Shown here: piece by piece, positions 1,219 through 7,414 of the stretch
How the letters are laid out: each line of letters begins with the position of its first letter
Position numbering within the stretch: the first letter of the stretch is position 1
Translations under genes and position numbers: made by a program
Notes under the pieces: generated by a model
What the model was told of the DNA's origin: nothing
Database searches by the model: none
The model's input: only the letters and a program-made list of their open reading frames with translations
Assembly (NCBI RefSeq): GCF_004138335.1
Contig: NZ_RYFW01000002.1
Span: forward strand, 1,841,501-1,905,500
Source of the DNA: Peristeroidobacter agariperforans
Lineage (GTDB): Bacteria > Pseudomonadota > Gammaproteobacteria > Steroidobacterales > Steroidobacteraceae
Length of the DNA: 64,000 nt
Direction of reading: 5' to 3'

Positions 1219-1722
1219 ATGAACAGATCCGGCCAGCTTGAGCGACGCTCCAAATTCATTCGATTCATGGTGTTAGCCGCGTTCGCCTGGATCACGCCCG
1301 CGACCCTGGCGGCCGACGACCCGCTCGATCTGGCGCGCTTGAAGGGCAAAGTCGTGGTCATCGACTTCTGGGCCTCCTGGTGCGCGCCGTGCCGCCAATC
1401 CTTCCCTTGGCTCAATGAAATGCAGGCCAAGTACCGCGACCGCGGCCTCGTGATCATTGGCGTCAACGTCGATCGCGAGCGCGCCGAGGCCGATCGCTTC
1501 CTTCAGCAAACACCGGCCGATTTCAAGGTCGTCTACGACCCGGGAGGCACGCTCGCCGCGCGCTATCAAGTCCCTGGCATGCCCAGCTCGTACGTGATCG
1601 GGCGCGACGGTCAGCAAGCGGGCGTGCACATCGGTTTTCGCAGTGGCACGCGCCAGGAGCGCGAAGCGGAGCTCGAGCGCCTGCTTGCCAACGCCACGGC
1701 GGATCGCACAAACAGTCAATAA
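1219..1722 (+). CDS. TlpA-like periplasmic thioredoxin
   Basis: The product has 167 residues: an N-terminal export signal (about residues 10-31, ending TPATLA) and a thioredoxin fold of the TlpA/ResA type. The active site is WCAPC (Cys55, Cys58) after VVIDFWAS, and the cis-Pro loop is VPGMPSSYVI. Such proteins transfer electrons to periplasmic disulfides. The ATG at 1219 is preferred because GAGGA lies 4-5 bases upstream; an in-frame ATG at 1195 has no good ribosome site. It heads the tight group with DUF4266, DUF3570 and ApbE, so its client may be the Cys-containing tail of the next gene (inference). Confidence 0.85.
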   Translation: MNRSGQLERRSKFIRFMVLAAFAWITPATLAADDPLDLARLKGKVVVIDFWASWCAPCRQSFPWLNEMQAKYRDRGLVIIGVNVDRERAEADRFLQQTPADFKVVYDPGGTLAARYQVPGMPSSYVIGRDGQQAGVHIGFRSGTRQEREAELERLLANATADRTNSQ

Positions 1723-1736
1723 CGAGGGAGATCGTG

Positions 1737-1949
1737 ATGAAAGCACTCAGTTTGCTGGCAGCCTGCCTGGCACTGCAAGGCTGCGCGAGCGTCGGAGTAG
1801 AGCCGTGGCAACGAGACGTGCTGGCGCGCCCAGAGATGTCGCTGGATGCGAACCCCATCGATGCGGCCATCGATGATCACATCTATTTCAGCAAGGAAGC
1901 ATCGAGCGGCGGGCGTGGCTTCGGCGGCGGTGGCTGCGGCTGTAATTAG
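1737..1949 (+). CDS. DUF4266 small lipoprotein
   Basis: The product is a 70-residue lipoprotein. The signal MKALSLLAACLALQGC has a lipobox (LQGC), so Cys16 is the predicted lipidated residue. The mature part has WQRDVLARPEM, HIYFSKEASSGG and a Gly-rich end GFGGGGCGCN. This pattern matches the DUF4266 family, whose function is unknown. The ATG at 1737 is preferred over the GTG at 1734; GGGAG lies about 8 bases upstream. The C-terminal Cys-Gly-Cys could bind metal or be a thiol client of the upstream thioredoxin (inference). It sits between that thioredoxin and the DUF3570 barrel with gaps of 14 and 9 bases. Confidence 0.85.
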   Translation: MKALSLLAACLALQGCASVGVEPWQRDVLARPEMSLDANPIDAAIDDHIYFSKEASSGGRGFGGGGCGCN

Positions 1950-1958
1950 GGGATCGGC

Positions 1959-3266
1959 ATGAACGACGATAACAATCTCAGCGCCACGCTCGCCGCCGCG
2001 ACCTGCGCCTTGCTCGGCGCGAGCGCCGCGGGGCCGGTGATGGCAGGCGAGACCGACCGATGGTCATTCGACACAGCACTGCTTTACTACGCAGAGAGCG
2101 ACGATCGAGTGCAGGACGTGAGCGCGACCATCGGTGCGCAACGCGCCTTTGAGGACGATCGCCTGCTGAATCTCACGCTGACAGCCGATACGCTAACCGG
2201 TGCATCTGCGAGCGGAGCGATCGCAAGCGACTTGCCGCAGACGTTCACGAGTCCCTCTGGCCGGGCGGTGTACTCGACGCCGGCGGGAGAAACACCGCTC
2301 GATGACACATTCCTCGACACGCGATTCGCGCTCAATGCGAGTTGGACGCAGCCGCTTGCGAGGCTCTACACCGTCTCTGCCGGTCTTGGTTTCTCCACCG
2401 AGTACGACTACACCCATCTCGGAGCGAATGTATCGCTCGCCCGTGATTTCAATAAGCGCAATACGACGGTGAGCGCGGGGCTCGCGTACTCGCAAGATGA
2501 CATCGATCCCGTCGGCGGCGCGCCTGTGCCGCTGTCACAGATGCTCGACGTGGGCGATGGTTCCAACAAACTCAGTAGCGACAGCAAGGACGTACTCGAC
2601 GTGTTGCTCGGGCTAACGCAGGTTCTATCGCGCAACACAGTACTGCGCGTCAATTATTCATACAGCCAGTCGAGTGGCTATTTGAACGATCCCTACAAGA
2701 TCCTGAGCGTCGTCGATGGCACGACCGGCGATACGATCCTGCGCACGCCCGCACCGGGTGTGGCGGGCCCGACTGGAATCTATCTTTATGAGAGCCGGCC
2801 GGATTCGCGTGCGAAGCACAGCCTGTACGCCGAGGTGAAACATGCATTCGGGGCGCCCGTGCTTTATGGATCGTACCGATTCATGACGGACGATTGGGGA
2901 ATCGACTCGCATACCGGCGAAGTTCGCCTGCGTTGGCCCGTCGGGGATGCAAGCTACGTCGAGCCGCAGCTGCGCTACTACATGCAGTCTCAAGCGGATT
3001 TTTATCACCCGAGCCTGGTGCAAGGCGCCGCATTGCCAGCGTATGCGTCGGCCGATTTTCGGTTAGGTGAGTTCGATGCGGTGACCGTCGGGCTGAAGTT
3101 CGGCCATCGCACCAGTGGCGGCAACGAGTGGAACGCACGTCTGGAGTACTACCAGCAGAACGGCAGCATTTCGCGCGATCAGTTGATCGGCAACCAATTC
3201 GCTCGCGAGCAGTATCCGGACCTGAAGGCAGTGATTGCGCAATTCGGCTATCGCTTCGGTCTATAA
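1959..3266 (+). CDS. DUF3570 outer-membrane beta-barrel protein
   Basis: The product has 435 residues: a weak signal region to about residue 30 (PVMAGE), then alternating aromatic/polar strands (WSFDTALLYYAESDD, YTVSAGLGFSTEYDYTHLG, VLRVNYSYSQSS) and a barrel-like end QFGYRFGL. This matches the DUF3570 family of uncharacterised outer-membrane barrels. Residues 77-83 read DTLTGAS, close to the [ST]GA[ST]-type sequence that ApbE enzymes modify with FMN; an ApbE gene follows directly. Flavinylation of this barrel is a prediction, not known. It starts 9 bases after the DUF4266 stop. Confidence 0.85.
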   Translation: MNDDNNLSATLAAATCALLGASAAGPVMAGETDRWSFDTALLYYAESDDRVQDVSATIGAQRAFEDDRLLNLTLTADTLTGASASGAIASDLPQTFTSPSGRAVYSTPAGETPLDDTFLDTRFALNASWTQPLARLYTVSAGLGFSTEYDYTHLGANVSLARDFNKRNTTVSAGLAYSQDDIDPVGGAPVPLSQMLDVGDGSNKLSSDSKDVLDVLLGLTQVLSRNTVLRVNYSYSQSSGYLNDPYKILSVVDGTTGDTILRTPAPGVAGPTGIYLYESRPDSRAKHSLYAEVKHAFGAPVLYGSYRFMTDDWGIDSHTGEVRLRWPVGDASYVEPQLRYYMQSQADFYHPSLVQGAALPAYASADFRLGEFDAVTVGLKFGHRTSGGNEWNARLEYYQQNGSISRDQLIGNQFAREQYPDLKAVIAQFGYRFGL

Positions 3267-3301
3267 CCTTGCACACGACGTCACAAGGCGCATCCGTCAT
3301 A

Positions 3302-4195
3302 TTGAGCCGCGAGCCTGGCTTTTGGGCCGGGCGGTTCGTTGCAATGGCTTCGCCGTGCGAAGTCCTCATCGAGGACGCGCCGGAGGCGCTTGCGCGCCAG
3401 ATCGCGGAGACTGCGGCAGCATGCGCCTGGCGTATCGAACGCAAGTTCAGCCGCTATCGATCCGACGGCGTCGTGCACATGATCAACTCGAACGCTGGTC
3501 GCCCGGTGGTGCTCGATGAGGAGTCCGCCGCGCTGATCGACTTCGCCGCGACACTGACCACAATGTCGGAGGGCGGTTTCGATATCACGTCGGGCGTGCT
3601 GCGGAAAGCGTGGACGTTCGACGGCGGTAGCGCTGTTCCGACACAGGCGCAGATCGACGAGGTGATGACCTGCGTCGGGTGGCGCCATGTTCAGTGGCGC
3701 AGGCCAGTTTTGCGGTTGAAGCCGGGGATGCAAATCGATCTCGGCGGCATCGGCAAGGAGTACGCGGTGGATCTGGCGGCGGCCCGAGTGGAGGACATTG
3801 CACCAGGCGTGAGCTGCCTGATCAATTTCGGCGGCGACGTTGTGGCCCGACATCCGCGTCGGGACGGGCAACCCTGGCGCGTGGGCATCGAAGCAGCGGC
3901 GAAGGCGGGAACTGCCGTGCGCATCGTCCATCTCACTCGCGGTGGGCTCGCGACCAGCGGCGATTCGCGCCGGTTCGTACTTCATCAAGGGCGCCGTTAC
4001 TCCCATATCATCGACGCGCGCATCGGTTGGCCCGTACGCGATGCGCCCCATTCAATTACCGTAGCCGCCGATACCTGCACGCAAGCAGGCACGCTCACGA
4101 CCCTTGCAATGCTCAAAGGCATGGAATGTGAGTCGTTTCTGCGCGCGAGTGGCGCAAAATACTGGATTCAGGCGTGCCCGGCTTCGCCGCAGTGA
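3302..4195 (+). CDS. apbE: ApbE-like FAD:protein FMN transferase
   Basis: The family moves FMN from FAD onto a Ser/Thr of target proteins. Visible ApbE landmarks are AMASPCEV near the N terminus, EGGFDITSGVLRKAW, IDLGGIGKEYAVD, NFGGDV, GGLATSGDSRRF and HIIDARIGWPV (the family's H-I-x-D-P-x-T-G region, here with Ala and Ile substitutions). The start is uncertain: no ATG exists upstream of 3344, and TTG at 3302 (AAGG 13 bases upstream) or TTG at 3269 are the choices. Neither gives a signal peptide, which is unusual because most ApbE proteins act in the periplasm. It closes the thioredoxin-DUF4266-DUF3570 operon. Confidence 0.85.
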   Translation: MSREPGFWAGRFVAMASPCEVLIEDAPEALARQIAETAAACAWRIERKFSRYRSDGVVHMINSNAGRPVVLDEESAALIDFAATLTTMSEGGFDITSGVLRKAWTFDGGSAVPTQAQIDEVMTCVGWRHVQWRRPVLRLKPGMQIDLGGIGKEYAVDLAAARVEDIAPGVSCLINFGGDVVARHPRRDGQPWRVGIEAAAKAGTAVRIVHLTRGGLATSGDSRRFVLHQGRRYSHIIDARIGWPVRDAPHSITVAADTCTQAGTLTTLAMLKGMECESFLRASGAKYWIQACPASPQ

Positions 4196-4503
4196 TCGAC
4201 AATGTAGCGACGCGCGGCGTCGCGCAGTTGGTTCGTCGCGGCAAAGGCGTTCTTGCCATGGGGCAGCCTTATCGAGCACCGCCTTGCCCTCGGCACGCAG
4301 TCGTTCTGCTCGAATCGATCGGCGGACGCGCAGCGGATCTGATCGTCGATCCGGCGAAGCAATGGAACGCGGATTTGATCGTCATGGGAACACACGGCCG
4401 GCGTGGGCTTCGTCGCCTGGCGCTCGGCAGCGATGCGGAGCTGGTCGTGCGCTCCGCTTCGGTGCCGGTGCTGCTGGTTCGTGGGGATGCCGGGCACGAA
4501 TGA
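4174..4503 (+). pseudogene. Universal stress protein, C-terminal remnant
   Basis: From about residue 52 the frame is a clear UspA C-terminal half: RAADLIVDPAKQWNADLIVMGTHGRRG, then LGSDAELVVRSASVPVLLVRG with the G-x9-G-[ST]-like nucleotide region. The first strand and helix of a Usp domain are missing, and the first part (to about residue 45) matches only loosely. The only ATG (4174) lies inside the end of apbE. It is read as a 5'-truncated usp gene, though a short expressed protein cannot be excluded. It lies beside a damaged cytochrome b561 gene, so this stretch looks eroded. Confidence 0.65.
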
Positions 4504-4800: not shown

Positions 4801-5198
4801 ATGTCTCTGCGCAATACATCATCGAGCTACGGATTCGTCGCTCGGTCGCTGCATTGGGCCATCGTCCTCGGAATCATCGCCCAATATCTCCTCGCGGAAG
4901 CGGACGACACGGAGCGTGCAGGGACAGTGGCTATGAGCGCCTTAGACTGGCATGTGTCGATCGGTATCGCCTTGCTCGCGCTTGCTGTCGTGAGAGTTCT
5001 GTGGCGCACCTTCGATGACACTCCGGTACGCTCGGGCCGGCGGGAGACGAGGAACTCGAGCATTTCATGCATGAAGTGCACGAGGTGCTGTTCAATGTTC
5101 TGACCGGGGTAGCCATCCTGCATGTTGTCGCAGCGCTGAAGCACCACTTCATCGACCGCGACGGCGTGCTTCGCCGCATGCTTCCGGGTGCTCGCTGA
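4801..5198 (+). pseudogene. Cytochrome b561 gene with internal deletion
   Basis: Residues 1-75 (MSLRNTSSSYGFVARSLHW... to VLWRTFDDTP) match the first two membrane helices of a b561-type cytochrome. The intact copy at 6878-7414 aligns closely (GLISRALHWIIVLSILAQWLLAEA). After about 5025 the frame breaks: continuing in the same frame gives a short unrelated tail, while another frame from about 5045 gives EELEHFMHEVHEVLFNVLTG and ends ...RRMLPGAR at 5198. That second part matches the last helix of the intact copy (LEEVHEVLFNILVALAVLHV). About 60 residues with the third helix region are missing, so a functional haem protein is unlikely. Confidence 0.75.
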
Positions 5199-6362: not shown

Positions 6363-6881
6363 CTATTTCGACGTATCTTGTAGCGCCGTCCGCACTGCTC
6401 CTTCGAGAGAGGTCAGGCCCCAGCGCCTGCCCTCGGCGATGGCCGCGTCCGTGGGCTGCCCCTTGATCCATGCCTCGCGTAGTGCAATTAGGGCACCGAC
6501 ACGATTCCCACTGGCGCAATGGATCAGTGTCAGATCATCGCCTGCTTGCTCGAGCAACTCATCCAGCCTGCGCGCATTGTCTTTCGTGAGCGACTGTGCG
6601 CCGGCAATGGGAATTGCGTGATAGTCCAGACCCAAGCCGGTGGCGATGCGCGCTTCGTCGAACCCCACGCTTTCCTCCGGAGTTCGCAGGTTGATCAGAT
6701 GCTTGACGCCCGCCGCGCGAATGCGGCCCACATCCGCGGCGTCGAGCGCGCCGCTCACGATTCTGTGATCTTCCGGCTGGCGCACGTCTGGCACTTCGGT
6801 GAGCAGCGCGCCGTCATGGGCGGTTGTTGGCTGGGTCGGGCCCAAGCAAAGAACCAGGACGAGAAGAATGGGTGCTTTCAT
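6363..6881 (-). CDS. DUF442 (Blh-type) phosphatase-like protein, exported
   Basis: The product has 172 residues with a signal peptide (APILLVLVLCLGPTQPTTA), then the beta-lactamase-hydrolase-like (DUF442) domain. Landmarks are GALDAADVGRIRAAGVKHLINLRTPEE and the cysteine loop LIHCASGNRVGAL. Such domains resemble tyrosine phosphatases or rhodaneses and often accompany sulfide or envelope redox genes; the substrate is unknown. The ATG at 6881 overlaps the end of the upstream cytochrome b561 gene (ATGA), so the two are translationally coupled. An ATG at 6929 would add a non-signal extension and is rejected. Confidence 0.8.
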   Translation of the reverse strand: MKAPILLVLVLCLGPTQPTTAHDGALLTEVPDVRQPEDHRIVSGALDAADVGRIRAAGVKHLINLRTPEESVGFDEARIATGLGLDYHAIPIAGAQSLTKDNARRLDELLEQAGDDLTLIHCASGNRVGALIALREAWIKGQPTDAAIAEGRRWGLTSLEGAVRTALQDTSK

Positions 6882-7414
6882 ACTCTGGCGGCCACCGTGT
6901 GTCTGCGTCGTAGTCTGCGAGAGAGCCAATGTTTCGCCGCGCCGATAACATGGAGCACGGCGAGCGCGACCAGGATATTGAACAGCACCTCGTGCACTTC
7001 TTCGAGCGTCTCTTCTCCCCCCAGGGAAATTCTCGGTACATCGAACCAGTTGAAGAAGCGAAGTGGCTCATCCTCTGCGGAAGACAGCAACCATCCGGTC
7101 ACAGGAATTGCCAACAGTAGCAGATAGAAGGCGAAGTGCACGACCCGGGCGACCGCGATCTCATATGACTTCATGTCGACGGGCCATGCGGGTGCAATAT
7201 TGAGAAATCGCCAAACCAAGCGCACGATTACCAGCAGCAGGACTGTCAGTCCGATGGACTGATGTAGCATCAGGGTATCGAAGGCTCCGTAGATCGTAGC
7301 GGAGTCTTCGTTGGCTTCAGCCAGCAGCCACTGAGCCAGTATGGATAGCACGATGATCCAGTGGAGTGCTCGGCTGATTAGCCCGTATTCCGAACGCGTG
7401 TTGAGCAGGACCAT
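6878..7414 (-). CDS. Cytochrome b561-type membrane protein, intact copy
   Basis: The product has 178 residues and four predicted helices: about 17-37 (LHWIIVLSILAQWLLAEA), 50-70 (HQSIGLTVLLLVIVRLVWRF), 89-109 (HFAFYLLLLAIPVTGWLL) and 143-165 (EEVHEVLFNILVALAVLHVIG). Histidines in helices 1, 2, 3 and 4 fit two haem b groups, as in cytochrome b561/CybB quinol oxidoreductases. It is the intact paralogue of the deleted copy at 4801-5198. The stop overlaps the DUF442 gene start (ATGA). Electron acceptors could include the nearby cytochrome c (inference). Confidence 0.85.
   Translation of the reverse strand: MVLLNTRSEYGLISRALHWIIVLSILAQWLLAEANEDSATIYGAFDTLMLHQSIGLTVLLLVIVRLVWRFLNIAPAWPVDMKSYEIAVARVVHFAFYLLLLAIPVTGWLLSSAEDEPLRFFNWFDVPRISLGGEETLEEVHEVLFNILVALAVLHVIGAAKHWLSRRLRRRHTVAARV

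Follow-up and report, generated by a model that had tools for sequence, protein, structure and literature searches.

Gene content and organization of the locus

The window analyzed here, a stretch of 64,000 nucleotides of the Peristeroidobacter agariperforans genome, carries a group of four genes encoding a periplasmic thioredoxin, a DUF4266 lipoprotein, a DUF3570 outer-membrane barrel, and an ApbE (flavin adenine dinucleotide (FAD):protein flavin mononucleotide (FMN) transferase). All four were open frames on the + strand, adjacent and at the expected positions, and the frames together with their Pfam matches bore out the preliminary description of this DNA, which had named four neighboring genes of these families. 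The barrel gene (positions 1959 to 3266, + strand) encodes 435 amino acids, the presumed substrate of the ApbE, and its PF12094 match (446.7 bits) spanned the whole protein (profile positions 3-427 of 427). The ApbE frame ends at 4195 on the + strand (PF02424, 209.3 bits), appears to lack a leader, and can start at TTG 3269 or TTG 3302. The start may be TTG 3269, 2 bases past the barrel stop, which was favored because the extra residues resemble, by eye, the ApbE N-terminus of the nearest relative (L036). The intergenic gaps are 11, 9, and 2 bases with this start and 11, 9, and 35 bases with the other.

The first gene (1219 to 1722, + strand) encodes a TlpA/ResA-like periplasmic thioredoxin with a WCAPC active site and an N-terminal signal-like segment; an alternative in-frame ATG is located at 1195. 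Its Pfam scores were 69.1 bits for Redoxin and 68.5 for AhpC-TSA, Thioredoxin_8 was also matched, and the best NCBIfam match was ResA, under the family cut-off. At E 0.001, PF08534, PF00578, PF13905, and others were matched and PF13899 was not among the matches. The second gene (1734 to 1949, + strand; PF14086, 82.9 bits) encodes a small DUF4266 lipoprotein with the C-terminal end GGGGCGCN, a CXC tail.

The survey of related loci was based on the best 80 of 519 DUF3570 relatives (BLAST E 1e-4), and some of the contigs end nearby. Within these 80 loci the barrel gene was accompanied by DUF4266 in 78, by a thioredoxin in 70, and by ApbE in 65, and the four genes are a conserved operon. The nearest relative was Peristeroidobacter soli, with a barrel that is 89% identical. 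Distribution close to home was patchy: one genome of the same genus and one of the same family were among the matches listed, both with the short DUF3570 type only.

The window genome also holds a second, short DUF3570 cluster (L002 and L117, G000:C9:2060832-2064554), which consists of a thioredoxin, DUF4266, a DUF3570 protein with TSAS and SGAS, and DUF3187. No ApbE is directly adjacent to it; one bearing a lipobox-like GC is located at a distance of about 12 kb.

Flavinylation motif and leader of the barrel

The motif DTLTGAS was found where the preliminary description had placed it, at residues 77-83 of the barrel (bases 2187-2207, + strand). S83 is presumably the FMN acceptor, by analogy with the residue esterified in motifs of this type. 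The motif alignment contained 79 mature barrels, namely that of the window and those of 78 of the 80 loci, the partial L053 and L068 being left out; alignment A2 was made without L002, L007, L017, L029, and L033. Conservation of D-x-x-[ST]-G-A-[ST] among DUF3570 homologs, a check suggested at the outset, was observed, with D-x-L-[ST]-G-[AS]-[ST] present in 79/79 aligned barrels. D77, L79, G81, and G86 were found in all 79, as was S or T at positions 80 and 83, and position 82 was A in all but one barrel, which has S. The strict form [ST]GA[ST] therefore occupies the site in 78/79 barrels (TGAS at 80-83 in the window), and anywhere in the protein it occurred exactly once in 77, twice in 1, and not at all in 1. 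In a wider sample of the class (31 rows), [ST]G[AS][ST] was present at the site in 30 and the strict form in 26. The motif by itself is weak evidence, since 10% of 5,000 shuffles of the window barrel contained [ST]GA[ST] and 1% contained D-x-x-[ST]-G-A-[ST]; it is considered real because it is conserved at one alignment column in 79/79, and a chance motif was rejected on this basis.

A near repeat, SGAI, follows at residues 85-88 (2211 to 2222, + strand) and lacks a hydroxyl residue in its last place. At these residues [ST]GA[ST] was present in 0/79 barrels and a hydroxyl residue at 88 in 16/79. Two motifs were found in L138, L140, L141, L143, L145, and L007. In the first four, [ST]GASP with Glu three places ahead is followed by SGA[ST] about 20 residues on, and the second site of the two-site branch aligns about 15 residues beyond the position of SGAI. 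Since 77/79 barrels have one motif, the window branch is a one-site branch, and by its sequence the window barrel belongs to this one-site branch of DUF3570. The split into one-site and two-site branches does not appear in the excerpted text of PMC8238504, and it is possible that the figures or supplement of that paper already contain some of the features.

In three loci (L007:1366-4125, L029:1390-4125, and L017:430-3141) the DUF3570 proteins are about 900 residues long, of which about 350-370 form a C-terminal extension that gave no Pfam match at E 0.001.

The leader of the barrel precursor contains a near-invariant motif, L-[AT]-x-A-T-C-x-L-L-G, at residues 11-20 (1989 to 2018, + strand). 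In 80 precursors, L18 and L19 were conserved in 100%, A14 in 99%, L11 in 97%, C16 in 95%, G20 in 93%, and T15 in 86%. Despite this near-invariant leader, identity of the mature barrels to the window protein goes as low as about 48%. The leaders of DUF4266 (79 sequences) and thioredoxin (38 sequences) lacked comparable conservation in their hydrophobic cores, and to our knowledge signal peptides are rarely conserved to such a degree. No canonical lipobox surrounds the leader Cys. The leaders of L007, L017, L029, L138, L142, and L143 have stretches like A-L-T-A-A-A-x-x-L-P-G. We propose that ApbE or a chaperone may read the conserved leader.

Co-occurrence with ApbE

The class sample used to assess co-occurrence comprised 369 genomes, and 95 of them had some DUF3570 match. 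Long DUF3570 was defined as a match of at least 160 bits, with the one-site and two-site branches pooled (50 genomes), and the ApbE subtype as a match of at least 164 bits with the window ApbE (51 genomes). Both were present in 48 genomes, the barrel only in 2, the ApbE only in 3, and neither in 316. The joint occurrence of motif-bearing DUF3570 and apbE that the preliminary description had put forward for checking was thus seen, with the subtype in 48/50 genomes with long DUF3570 versus 3/319 others (Fisher p 5e-54, kinship ignored). Fifteen loci had no ApbE nearby; in the genomes of the 9 that were traced further, the subtype was located elsewhere in 9/9.

The two barrel-only genomes were G233, in which pieces of ApbE lie at two contig ends, and G052, which has only a distant ApbE (E 5.8e-14). 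One barrel copy of G052 has TGPS at the site and the other, cut by a contig end, has SGSS. Loss of the motif along with ApbE was considered for this genome and was weak and not upheld, because SGSS is found also with ApbE in L033. The same genome, without this ApbE subtype, carries two tandem DUF4266-DUF3570 pairs (L137, G052:C155:1-3915).

Features and predicted location of ApbE

The window ApbE aligned to solved ApbEs (best 1vrm, E 2.9e-33), and the alignment covered the conserved stretches DLGGIGK, TSGD, and YSHIID, for which simple patterns matched 60, 60, and 39 of 63 near-full-length relatives. Leaders were sought with a strict test, which scored the mean hydropathy of charge-free 12-residue stretches within 35 residues of any possible start. 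A total of 88 ApbE frames were examined, and the 86 linked to DUF3570 (all but L003 and L004, and including the window's own, L001) contain some frames truncated at the edge of a locus and some places that were entered more than once (e.g., L011/L047 and L012/L087). By the strict test, no signal-peptide-like segment was found in 86/86 linked frames (maximum 1.85). The two control ApbEs of the window genome that are not DUF3570-linked (L003 and L004) have hydrophobic segments of 2.43 and 2.80 after the start. In 42 of the 86 linked ApbEs, no more than 30 codons separate the conserved core from an upstream in-frame stop. Seven further ApbEs from the genomes followed up, a set without L127 and L128, and those from the survey that included the two-site loci looked alike.

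The signal peptide or lipobox typical of secreted ApbEs was thus not found in the window ApbE by hydropathy. Because cytosolic ApbEs exist, the missing signal makes a typical periplasmic ApbE less probable and leaves transferase activity unaffected. As the linked ApbEs look leaderless, they should act in the cytoplasm.

Thioredoxin and DUF4266

WCxxC was present in 66 of 70 locus thioredoxins, and the CXC tail of DUF4266 in 78/78, the window protein ending in CGCN. The two proteins are tied together by their fusion in three of the 80 loci (L069, L077, and L110), where a single open reading frame has DUF4266 behind the thioredoxin. A model of this fusion was not used as evidence of docking between thioredoxin and tail, the tail being of low confidence. 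TlpA/ResA-like thioredoxins are usually kept reduced by DsbD/CcdA.

Modeled structure and predicted orientation of the barrel

The AlphaFold2 model of the mature barrel, built from 79 sequences, had a predicted local distance difference test score (pLDDT) of 94.8 and a predicted template modeling score (pTM) of 0.87 and contained 16 strands. The eight segments after odd strands have 5, 39, 2, 25, 42, 4, 27, and 18 residues (total 162), and the seven turns after even strands have 2-5 residues each (total 25). A C-terminal aromatic residue, F at mature position 404, was found in 76/79. The model thus has the features of an outer-membrane beta-barrel: an even number of strands, long loops at one end with short turns at the opposite end, and the C-terminal aromatic residue. 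Foldseek matched 582 solved chains at E <=0.001; the 50 best shown were all outer-membrane barrels, and the matches included OmpG (2.2e-12), OpdK, PfeA, and FadL. A PDB sequence search with the barrel profile gave no solved relative (best E 0.29). The confident model and the fold matches agree with the earlier call of an outer-membrane barrel.

In the model, outward strand 3 ends with T80, and the 39-residue loop on the long-loop side begins with G81-S83. In the standard topology of such barrels both ends are periplasmic and the long loops are outside. The model and this topology support placing the motif site at the extracellular mouth of the barrel. The preliminary description had named a site facing the membrane or outside, together with a lack of FMN, among the findings that would refute flavinylation. 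The site is indeed on the extracellular side by standard topology, but flavinylation is not thereby excluded, since the linked ApbEs, leaderless in appearance, could modify the barrel prior to export.

Sequence conservation was compared between the two sides and was mostly negative as proof of an extracellular active site. Near-invariant polar columns numbered 25/266 outside versus 5/134 inside (p 0.045, for a class picked after viewing the list), all near-invariant columns numbered 58/266 versus 20/134 (p 0.11), and mean conservation did not differ between the outer and inner sides.

Comparison with published systems

Clusters of ApbE, DUF3570, DUF4266, and thioredoxin were reported in eLife in 2021 (PMC8238504), where the CXC tail of DUF4266 was also noted; in the literature searched, no other paper was found for DUF3570 or DUF4266. 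In that report the DUF3570 protein of Chlorobium luteolum was flavinylated with its ApbE at two [S/T]GA[S/T] sites, and flavinylation was lost only when both serines were replaced; the protein was flavinylated when made in E. coli by a signal-truncation strategy and was mostly in the pellet. The proposal that the window encodes a redox protein of an undescribed kind did not hold, since that report already covers both this four-gene cluster and the flavinylation of DUF3570, and the window operon is a further case of a cluster type known since 2021. The C. luteolum protein shares with the window barrel a cognate ApbE and the [S/T]GA[S/T] motif and differs in having two motifs, the window branch having one. 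The main text of PMC8238504, in its excerpts, does not use the word barrel, and its single mention of the outer membrane concerns TonB receptors; these excerpts state neither the site and timing of flavin attachment nor the side that the flavin faces.

The 'DsbD' flavinylated electron-transfer systems of the same report share a thioredoxin-like protein, DUF4266, DUF3570, and ApbE with the window; they have DsbD in the cluster and a PF13899 thioredoxin, whereas the window cluster is without both. Membership in the DsbD system was not assigned because DsbD is unlinked. A review describes most ApbEs as secreted, with periplasmic location essential for one, and does not mention DUF3570 in the excerpted passages (PMC12052999). 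It cites a cytosolic ApbE of Klebsiella pneumoniae that acts on a soluble fumarate reductase. That enzyme, like the window ApbE, is without a signal peptide, but its substrate stays inside the cell, whereas the window substrate is exported to the outer membrane. In the excerpts of PMC11334425, the outer membrane is among the locations of confirmed substrates, with the substrate unnamed, and DUF3570 and DUF4266 are not mentioned.

Iron-permease module beside related operons

In 16/80 loci the operon is adjoined by a response regulator, a histidine kinase, a cupredoxin, and an FTR1 iron permease; this module was present in 12 of 47 loci with full flanks. Pfam names for its parts were taken from one representative each (L064 or L040), and the other loci were grouped by BLAST. 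Fourteen of the 16 belong to Colwellia, Glaciecola, and similar genera, and the others are L064 and L100. In L064, a nearer relative of the window, the module has the opposite orientation. P19/FTR1 iron-assimilation clusters, as presented in the excerpts of PMC8238504, also have FTR1 near flavin or thioredoxin genes; the DUF3570 relatives differ in their Cupredoxin_1 partner and two-component system, found in the 16 loci and not in the window genome. The module suggests an iron role in the relatives. In the window genome, two stretches contain FTR1 places, with one weak match (E 6e-6) to the module FTR1 and no match to any other module part, and the module was not supported as part of the window's own system.

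A further small protein, barrel-like by eye, is encoded in 15 of the 16 module loci. Near FTR1 and cupredoxin, L064:7996-9270 and frames in 14 other loci encode this protein of about 250 residues, which resembles an outer-membrane barrel; that of L064, the sole one scanned, gave no Pfam match.

Proposed function and alternative explanations

Flavinylation of the barrel by the neighboring ApbE, as first suggested, is well supported by motif conservation, by co-occurrence with the ApbE subtype, and by the flavinylated homolog (PMC8238504), and the barrel very probably carries covalent FMN. We give a probability of about one half to the reading that the operon encodes an outer-membrane flavin barrel with one site, the enzyme that matures it, and the parts that supply its electrons, forming a thiol-fed, outward-facing flavin reductase that is loaded before export. 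In the cytoplasm, the leaderless-looking ApbE would link FMN to the barrel precursor at S83; the precursor would be exported, its leader perhaps read by ApbE or a chaperone, and then inserted into the outer membrane, and the FMN would lie at the extracellular mouth, as the model and standard topology support. Electrons would pass from DsbD to the TlpA-like thioredoxin, the CXC tail of DUF4266, and the flavin. In the weakest step, the flavin would reduce an outside acceptor, for which ferric iron is the best guess. A more specific version is offered tentatively, with a good deal less confidence: a dedicated leaderless ApbE would use the leader to flavinylate DUF3570 in the cytoplasm, and FMN would pass Sec on the unfolded chain and be displayed at the extracellular mouth, giving a heme-free surface flavin reductase fed by periplasmic thiols.

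Several points weigh against this reading. The leaderless call was made by hydropathy only, and a looser test (10-residue windows, charges and starts ignored) returned values between 2.25 and 2.93 ahead of the core in L043, L055, L101, and L109, which the strict test discounts because the stretches either have no usable start or are interrupted by charges. The reading assumes that a flavinylated chain is exported by Sec, which would require tolerance of the Sec channel for a modified chain. The predicted orientation of the barrel follows the usual barrel rule, conservation only weakly favors the outer side, and the Foldseek matches are to barrels in general, with TM-scores by query length of 0.22 to 0.47 for the best 50 of 582. 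The co-occurrence count ignores kinship, and G034, G056, and G193 (L134, L135, and L136) have the ApbE subtype without long DUF3570 nearby, short-type DUF3570 matches being located elsewhere in the genomes of G056 and G193. On the side of electron supply, the one DsbD_TM match in the window genome (G000:C9:223365-224018) is unlinked to the operon, and the tail is disordered in the thioredoxin-DUF4266 fusion model (pLDDT about 27-44, from 3 sequences only). The FTR1-cupredoxin module is likewise missing from the window genome.

The same flavoprotein system might instead be flavinylated in the periplasm, with the ApbE exported by an unrecognized route, the flavin facing the periplasm or the pore, and DUF4266 touching it directly. 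A periplasmic thiol donor would easily reach such a flavin, and the prevalence of secreted ApbEs (PMC12052999, in the excerpted passages) and the 'signal peptide-truncated' apbE strategy for C. luteolum, a hint in the excerpts of PMC8238504 that this ApbE was thought signal-bearing, agree with it. We consider it rather unlikely, as signal-like segments were lacking in all 86 linked frames, by standard topology the outer end of strand 3 carries the site, and the C. luteolum barrel, mostly in the pellet, was flavinylated in E. coli by the truncation strategy (PMC8238504, same excerpts). An opposite direction of electron flow or another job is about equally unlikely: the barrel could be a thiol-oxidizing or metal-transporting channel in which the flavin has a sensing or gating role, thioredoxin and DUF4266 being its substrates or aiding its assembly and not donating electrons. 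The fold resembles pores in general, the iron-permease modules beside relatives' operons fit transport too, and no result on the direction of electron flow was met in the excerpted literature. Against such a channel stands the usual maintenance of TlpA/ResA-like thioredoxins in the reduced state by DsbD/CcdA. DsbD also clusters with such genes in other genomes, according to the excerpts of PMC8238504. That the motif is due to chance and the barrel is not flavinylated is very improbable; [ST]GA[ST] does appear in a tenth of the shuffles, but its presence in every aligned relative, the tight co-occurrence with ApbE, and the flavinylated homolog (PMC8238504) all contradict this explanation.

The cluster itself is ordinary, and the interest of the preferred reading, a thiol-fed flavin reductase at the cell surface, lies in loading before export and an outward flavin, both of which follow from the leaderless-looking ApbE and the barrel topology. 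Should the linked ApbEs prove cytosolic and the site extracellular, loading of a covalent cofactor would precede export, unlike in the secreted ApbEs described in the excerpts of PMC12052999. If true, the reading would also provide a heme-free route for electrons to the outside of a Gram-negative cell.

Neighboring genes

Directly behind apbE, a universal stress protein frame (4174-4503) matched the last 61 of 141 profile positions and is probably a truncated gene. A cytochrome b561 gene at 4801-5198 is apparently broken, with its start and end in different frames, and a second b561-like frame is open at 6878-7414 on the - strand.

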